This document shows, one piece after another, positions 36,884-51,734 of a stretch of 64,000 nucleotides of DNA (positions within the stretch are counted from its first letter, which is position 1; the number at the start of each line of letters is the position of its first letter). Source of the DNA: Mesostigma viride (Eukaryota > Streptophyta > Mesostigmatophyceae > Mesostigmatales > Mesostigmataceae); contig RPFO01000080.1 of assembly GCA_009746045.1 (NCBI GenBank), positions 5,381,556-5,445,555 on the forward strand. The letters run 5' to 3'. The position numbers were made by a program, and so were the translations under genes. A model generated the notes under the pieces. That model saw only the letters and a list, made by a program, of their open reading frames with translations. It had not been told where the DNA came from and did not search any database.

Positions 36884-38418
36884 TCACGCCTCCGACCGCA
36901 ACCTGTTGATCCGATCCACACAGCTCGGGTCCGCGTATACGATGCGGCCGCCCCCCTGGCCGCCCCCCTGGCCATTGTTGCTCACATACACCCGCGTCAA
37001 GTCCTCAAAGAACGCTTCCCAGGGCAGCGAGCGGGCCATGGTGCTGTAGTGCCCGCCACCGCCGCCAGCATCACCTGCTCCCCAAGGTCCGCCGCCACCA
37101 CCAGCACTCCCCGCCCGATACCTGAGCCGGGACGGCCCCGGGGCGGTCTCACTACTTTCTGACGTCTCAGAACTATCCCCACCCGACGGCGGGACCCGGG
37201 CGGAGCAGGACTGCACATAGAGGGCGGAGATGAACGCATCCTTCCTCTGCCCTAGAGACTCAGCCCAGGTCCTTAGGAAGGCCACTGCCTCCTGTGTGAC
37301 GGCCCTAACCGTGTCCTCCTGCGTTGGATCCTCCACCTGTTCATCCTCCAGCTCCTCGTCCCCCTCTTCCTCCTCATCTTCCGCGCCGATTCGTCTCTCG
37401 TCCAGCCCCCCTGGTGCCTTCTGTGTGCCGCCCCCCTGCCCCGCCCTACCCCTGGGGTCTGCTCCTCGCGCAGACCGGGCGCTAGGGGTGGACGACTTTG
37501 TCCATTGCCGCCGGCCATTCTGCTGCTGGTGGATGGCACGGCTGGCCTTTGCCAGGTACCTCTCCAGGGTCTCGTAGGCCTCCCCCAGGAACTCCTGGTG
37601 TCCAGCGACCACCAGCGGCAGCAGCGGCCCCTCCCTGGCCCTATCTTCGATAACGTTACTAGCAAGCATCTTGTCGGACCAAAGTCGAAAGAGCGCCCCG
37701 AGAGCCTTGTCCGACTTATACAACTTCTGCTGGAACCTGCCCCTCTGCGCGGCACTCCTCTGCTTCTGCTTCTTCTTCTTCTTGTCCCGCAAAAGCATGA
37801 AGTCCGGCACTTTTTCCGCGCCGTGCTTCTGGATGTCGCCAGGTGTTGGCGCGGGGAGCCCCTTCTTGGGACCATCCAGCAGCGGCCCGCACATGCTCGC
37901 CAGCATGACGACATCGCGGTGGTCAAACCCGAACCGGTCCACCAACGCCTCGTGGAAGTAGATGCACAGGCCCAGGCTGTTCCCTTCACGGAACCGCACG
38001 AGGAAGTCCTCCACGAACTCGCGATGGAAATCCGCAAAGGACGAGGCCAGCTCACCAACCAGCCTGCGGGGACAAGCATCTGACGCCTCTGGCGGTTTCC
38101 AGGTGGGCCCTGCCACCGCCGCCGCCGCCGCCTCCCCCCTGGGGAACCTCTCCAGGGATGGAAGGACTTCATTGACGATCCGCTTCTCAAAGATAACCAG
38201 GCAGCGGTCTCCGTCCATGTCACCGTTGGACAAAAGGACCGCGGGCGGCCCTGTGGGGCTTTGTTTCGTAGAGAAGAGGATAATGTTGGTGGGGAGCGCA
38301 CTGCGGCCGGTCACAAAGGTCTCCACGAGGGACGCCGGGCGGCGCAGGCGGAAGGACACGACGTCTGAGGGCTGCACGCAGGGGCTGCGCACGGCCACGA
38401 TGTGCTGGCCGTCCACGT
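36884..38418 (-). CDS. RdRP exon E8: catalytic domain and C-terminus
   Basis: The acceptor is ATTGCAG before 38418; the exon supplies two bases to a split Asp codon. It begins VDGQHIVAVRSPCVQPSD, the family block V-x-R-x-P-C-x-x-P-x-D. LLSNGDMDGDRCLVIF (about 38192-38240) follows, the DxDGD magnesium-binding loop that defines cellular RdRPs. A Lys-rich stretch (RDKKKKKQKQR), a long acidic region and a Gly-rich tail lie further on. The stop is at 36884-36886. The exon is uninterrupted for 511 codons. Confidence 0.9.

Positions 38419-51734: not shown

Follow-up and report, generated by a model that had tools for sequence, protein, structure and literature searches.

A probable single gene in Mesostigma viride encoding an RDR-family polymerase with an N-terminal RNase H-like domain that appears catalytically dead

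The window (the whole stretch of Mesostigma viride DNA that was analysed, 64,000 nucleotides) carries eight exons, E1 to E8, which were read from frame, homology, and splice sites and were all found on the minus strand between 36884 and 51734 (Table 1). These limits coincide exactly with the E8 stop codon and the first E1 ATG. E1 and E2 join at a phase-0 junction with good sites (donor GAG|GTAAGC, acceptor TTTCCTGCGCAG|A). Elsewhere in the window there are an open frame of 1320 aa with an RVT_2 reverse transcriptase match (E 9.2e-12) at 1835-5794 on the plus strand and a leucine-rich repeat frame of 797 aa at 19638-22028 on the minus strand.

Table 1. Exons and other features of the locus, as positions in the window
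Feature	Position	Strand	Content and basis
E1	51486..51734	-	Initiator ATG, then the opening part of the RNase H-like domain (predicted strands 1-3, helix A, and beginning of strand 4); identical in Mv07253
E2 core	49983..50151	-	Remainder of the RNase H-like domain, to residue ~139-141; Mv07253 match, fold model, codon signal
E2 tail	49522..49982	-	Last 153 residues of public Mv07253 and stop; all or mostly intron in the one-gene model
E3	48636..49491	-	Four-helix domain (~49489-49270) followed by a linker rich in Gly
Public RDR start ATG (Mv07252), inside E3	49459-49457	-	
E4	46252..46615	-	RdRP domain, first part; PF05183 positions 12-118; in Mv07252
E5	43375..43575	-	RdRP domain; PF05183 positions 122-196; in Mv07252
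E6	41840..42022	-	RdRP domain; spliced model, in Mv07252
E7	39129..39483	-	RdRP domain; PF05183 positions 252-369; in Mv07252
E8	36884..38418	-	Remainder of RdRP domain, C-terminal region, stop codon; PF05183 positions 381-580; in Mv07252
DMDGD catalytic motif of the polymerase	38207..38221	-	Read in the sequence and in Mv07252

Two protein models from Mesvir1, the JGI set for Mesostigma viride, cover these exons, and the locus is annotated there as two genes. Mv07253-RA.1 (292 aa) is identical (100%) to E1+E2 read through to the stop at 49522, and Mv07252-RA.1 (1153 aa) is identical (100%) to our model from the first E3 ATG to the stop at 36884. Because the models match letter for letter, our exons and the junction of E1 with E2 are shared with a separate annotation; the in-phase splicing of E1 and E2, read in a preliminary description of this DNA, is borne out by this shared junction. 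Mv07253 carries no Pfam label in the public annotation. According to the available portion of PMC7027972, one published Mesostigma annotation, possibly a different set from Mesvir1, used transcripts and MAKER. An assembly error at the Mv07253 stop was considered and rejected, since the separate public model has the identical 292 residues and the same end.

The polymerase half was characterized by profile and structure-database searches. Mv07252 matches PF05183 with E 8.2e-87 (292.7 bits, above the curated Pfam cut-off) over positions 11-580 of the 582 in the profile, and the DxDGD catalytic motif of the RDR family is present as DMDGD. From these sequence features, the prediction that E3-E8 encode a cellular RNA-dependent RNA polymerase of the RDR family is solid; the profile match and the motif likewise confirm the earlier reading of E4-E8 as an RDR-type polymerase on the same strand as E1 and E2. 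The best sequence match among solved structures is QDE-1, at 54.1 bits (5fsw) and 54.9 bits (2j7n, which we take to be a QDE-1 structure), while RDR2 structures score lower in the same search (30.5 bits). The locus shares with QDE-1 and the cellular RdRPs the whole RdRP domain with its DxDGD motif; it differs in the RNase H-fold domain that lies directly upstream, which QDE-1 is not known to have. In the available text of PMC7994812, Mesostigma RDR-like genes fall outside both RDR1/2 and RDR6, on long branches with low support.

The upstream half is recognizable as RNase H-like once its two exons are joined. Taken singly, neither the E1 frame nor the E2 frame gives a Pfam match at E<=1; joined, they match RVT_3 with E 0.0032 and 17.8 bits, which lies below the curated cut-off of 21.6. 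A PDB sequence search with E1+E2 returned 11 weak matches at E<=10, with no RNase H among them, and NCBIfam gave two matches, weak and unrelated. An AlphaFold model of Mv07253, built from the single sequence, has an RNase H fold over residues 8-141; its mean pLDDT is 46.8, with values of 73-79 in the core blocks and below 50 over residues 137-292. Foldseek with this model gave 56 matches at E<=0.001, the best 50 of which are all RNases H (best E 1.6e-5). Because the joined exons match RVT_3 where the single exons do not, and because the model matches RNases H, the RNase H likeness of the predicted E1+E2 domain is beyond chance, and the fold proposed in the preliminary description is upheld by the structure prediction and the Foldseek matches. 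A PIWI-type fit (2 of 50 VIA rows) was set aside, as Foldseek puts RNase H1 first.

In the alignment, this domain retains none of the four catalytic acidic residues. The partners of D10, E48, D70, and D134 (E. coli RNase HI positions) are S16, K56, a gap between T77 and V78, and A131, respectively, assignments that could shift by about one residue because identity is low. The alignment supports loss of all four acidic residues from the putative RNase H-fold domain, as had been suspected from the first reading of the sequence, and this loss distinguishes it from bacterial and archaeal RNase H1 (e.g., 3h08 and 4e19).

Between the RNase H-like and polymerase regions lies the helical domain of E3. 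It has no Pfam match at E<=10 and no Foldseek match at E<=0.001, and its sole match in the genome is itself; membership in a known family was rejected on these grounds. Predicted helix 1 spans residues 2-15 of the folded piece, and the public start Met is residue 11. The E3 frame contains no ATG from the upstream stop to this public start. Because the public start cuts a predicted helix and has no earlier in-frame ATG, the model suggests that RDR coding begins upstream of it, with E2 as the nearest candidate.

To examine the region between the two halves, we used a codon signal trained on 1736 codons from four other RDR loci of the genome. The E2 core scores 0.38 per codon in its own frame vs. 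-0.18 and -0.40 in the others, and the E3 domain scores 0.59 vs. -0.23 and -0.38. The E2 tail, which is unstructured in the fold model, shows no frame preference (0.11 vs. 0.17 and -0.15, with one reverse frame at 0.24); the signal of E1 is near nil (-0.03 per codon, with one reverse frame at 0.01). The best candidate donors in the E2 tail are at 49698, 49659, and 49893. In-frame E2-E3 splice sites exist; however, their best pair has a sum of 7.3, vs. 10.0-17.7 for each of the six other introns, and 115 of 300 dinucleotide shuffles contained a pair at least as strong, some in-frame pair being present in 271 of 300. Splice-site strength was thus rejected as proof of the E2-E3 join, and the join is one that we infer.

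We consider it probable, with substantial room for doubt, that E1-E8 form a single eight-exon gene, encoding an RDR whose N-terminal part holds a catalytically dead RNase H fold followed by a small helical domain, and that the public annotation has split this gene. The single-gene model put forward in the preliminary description therefore stands in part: the same-strand gap of just 62 bp between the Mv07253 stop and the Mv07252 start, the E2 tail devoid of coding signal, the predicted helix cut by the public start, and the 15 further AUGs ahead of that start speak for it, while the two-gene annotation, the chance-level E2-E3 splice sites, the near-nil codon signal of E1, and the RVT_3 score below its curated cut-off speak against it. 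The annotation and the splice sites favor instead a pair of neighboring genes as annotated, in which Mv07253 would be a small orphan protein combining a dead RNase H fold with a disordered tail, Mv07252 would be the RDR, starting at the E3 ATG or in an unrecognised upstream exon, and the arrangement would be plain adjacency. We judge this rather unlikely, given the closeness of stop and start, the last part of Mv07253 without coding signal, and the position of the public start within a predicted helix. A bicistronic mRNA, in which the first frame would give the RNase H-like protein and leaky scanning would allow translation of the RDR from the second, would fit the 62-bp gap, which resembles short inter-ORF stretches, and bicistronic loci are pervasive in green algae according to the available text of PMC11892635. 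On the other hand, those loci have fewer AUGs upstream of ORF 2, whereas here, not counting the first start, 15 AUGs lie ahead of the second; the E2 tail lacks coding signal; and the same paper treats chlorophytes, "streptophyt" being absent from its available text. We regard this reading as very unlikely. Less probable still is a functionless, decayed retrotransposon RNase H fragment inserted beside an RDR gene, which would suit the lost catalytic residues and the RVT_2 frame elsewhere in the window, but the domain is free of stop codons, contains an intron whose good splice sites are in phase, and has a fold that is predicted from one sequence, and a genome search at E<=1 yielded, among the best candidates scored, E1 and E2 alone.

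If the exons do form one gene, the domain arrangement is new for an RDR. An RDR with an RNase H domain was not found in the titles and abstract openings of the open-licence papers surveyed, and the candidates scored in three protein searches (capped at ~7990 in two of them) yielded the two Mesostigma models and no relatives outside Mesostigma, a result that weighs little. On the one-gene reading, the public annotation, in which the gene is split and the RNase H-fold domain is unnamed, would need correction.

Further RdRP matches were found on four other contigs of the assembly searched (440 Mb, 2243 contigs), and nine open frames at these four RDR loci were scanned with Pfam. At two of the four, a further domain precedes the RdRP match on its own strand, namely AAA_28 in C1468 and Helicase_C in C668. 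On the minus strand of C1468 (L012:4210-8486), an AAA_28 P-loop domain (E 8.8e-12) in the open frame 7761-8486 ends ~430 bp before the RdRP match of the open frame 4210-8172; the two frames overlap and differ, so that an AAA-RDR gene is possible there. The splice pairs that would join them score weakly. On the minus strand of C668, a Helicase_C match (E 3.9e-9) lies ~3 kb upstream of the RDR (L017:2250-2795, L016:7277-8998), and this pair may form a helicase-RDR gene of the kind known from Dictyostelium and oomycetes. These upstream domains, as candidate fusions, make N-terminal additions to RDRs in Mesostigma more credible. A paralogous RDR has a weak hnRNP_Q_AcD match (E 0.015).

A dead RNase H fold may retain a surface for RNA:DNA or RNA:RNA duplexes, and the nucleic-acid-holding role suggested in the preliminary description is a hypothesis of this kind. 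In retroviral reverse transcriptase, too, an inactive RNase H fold, the connection domain, adjoins the polymerase and helps hold the duplex; that polymerase has an unrelated fold, and the domain is placed after it rather than before. Given one gene, we tentatively propose, by analogy with QDE-1 products and with Maelstrom and at somewhat less than even confidence, that the dead domain binds duplex. It would then bind an RNA:DNA hybrid or dsRNA and hand the RNA strand to the polymerase joined to it; the resulting dsRNA would pass to Dicer. QDE-1 makes RNA on ssDNA with mostly DNA/RNA hybrids as products, and RPA shifts it toward dsRNA (available text of PMC2950127); if a domain that binds duplexes were present in cis, it could hold hybrids of this sort, or R-loops, and present their RNA to the polymerase. 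Since Mesostigma has Dicer and Argonaute genes of algal type, per the available text of PMC7994812, any dsRNA would have takers. It is still debated by what means RDRs select aberrant RNA as template, and a duplex-binding pseudo-nuclease built into an RDR would provide a recognition module open to testing, in a streptophyte alga of early-diverging position. According to the available text of PMC2628886, Maelstrom of the piRNA pathway likewise has an RNase H-fold domain with a switched active site, so that an altered domain of this fold acts in a small-RNA pathway; unlike the Mesostigma domain, it belongs to the DnaQ-H exonuclease branch of the fold and has no adjoining polymerase. The helicase-RDRs of Dictyostelium, oomycetes, Hydra, and Nematostella, as described in the available text of PMC4791657, also combine an RDR with an N-terminal nucleic-acid-handling domain, although the added domain is a DEAD-box helicase rather than a dead RNase H fold.

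A more speculative and, in our view, unlikely extension is that a silencing polymerase acquired an RNase H domain whose nuclease activity was then lost, yielding a built-in reader of RNA:DNA hybrids. Such a reader would guide the enzyme to R-loops, or to hybrids that it had itself made on DNA templates, and lead to conversion of their RNA into dsRNA; a hybrid-reading RDR would be one protein linking R-loops to small RNAs.

Introns of the locus also contain repeats. Very long simple tandem arrays occupy 40384-41824 and 46745-48103, comprising ~1.4 kb triplet runs and a 7-base unit repeated ~194 times, and pieces of exon edges recur within introns at 43180-43396 and near 39669. The E5 end and its splice donor recur three more times, with 22-23 of 28 bases matching (0 of 100 shuffles), and a copy of the E7 start, matching at 18 of 28 bases, lies 180 bases upstream of it (0 of 100 shuffles). 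Across the 14 exon edges tested, such copies were matched in at most 1 of 100 shuffles for three edges and in at most 5 of 100 for five.
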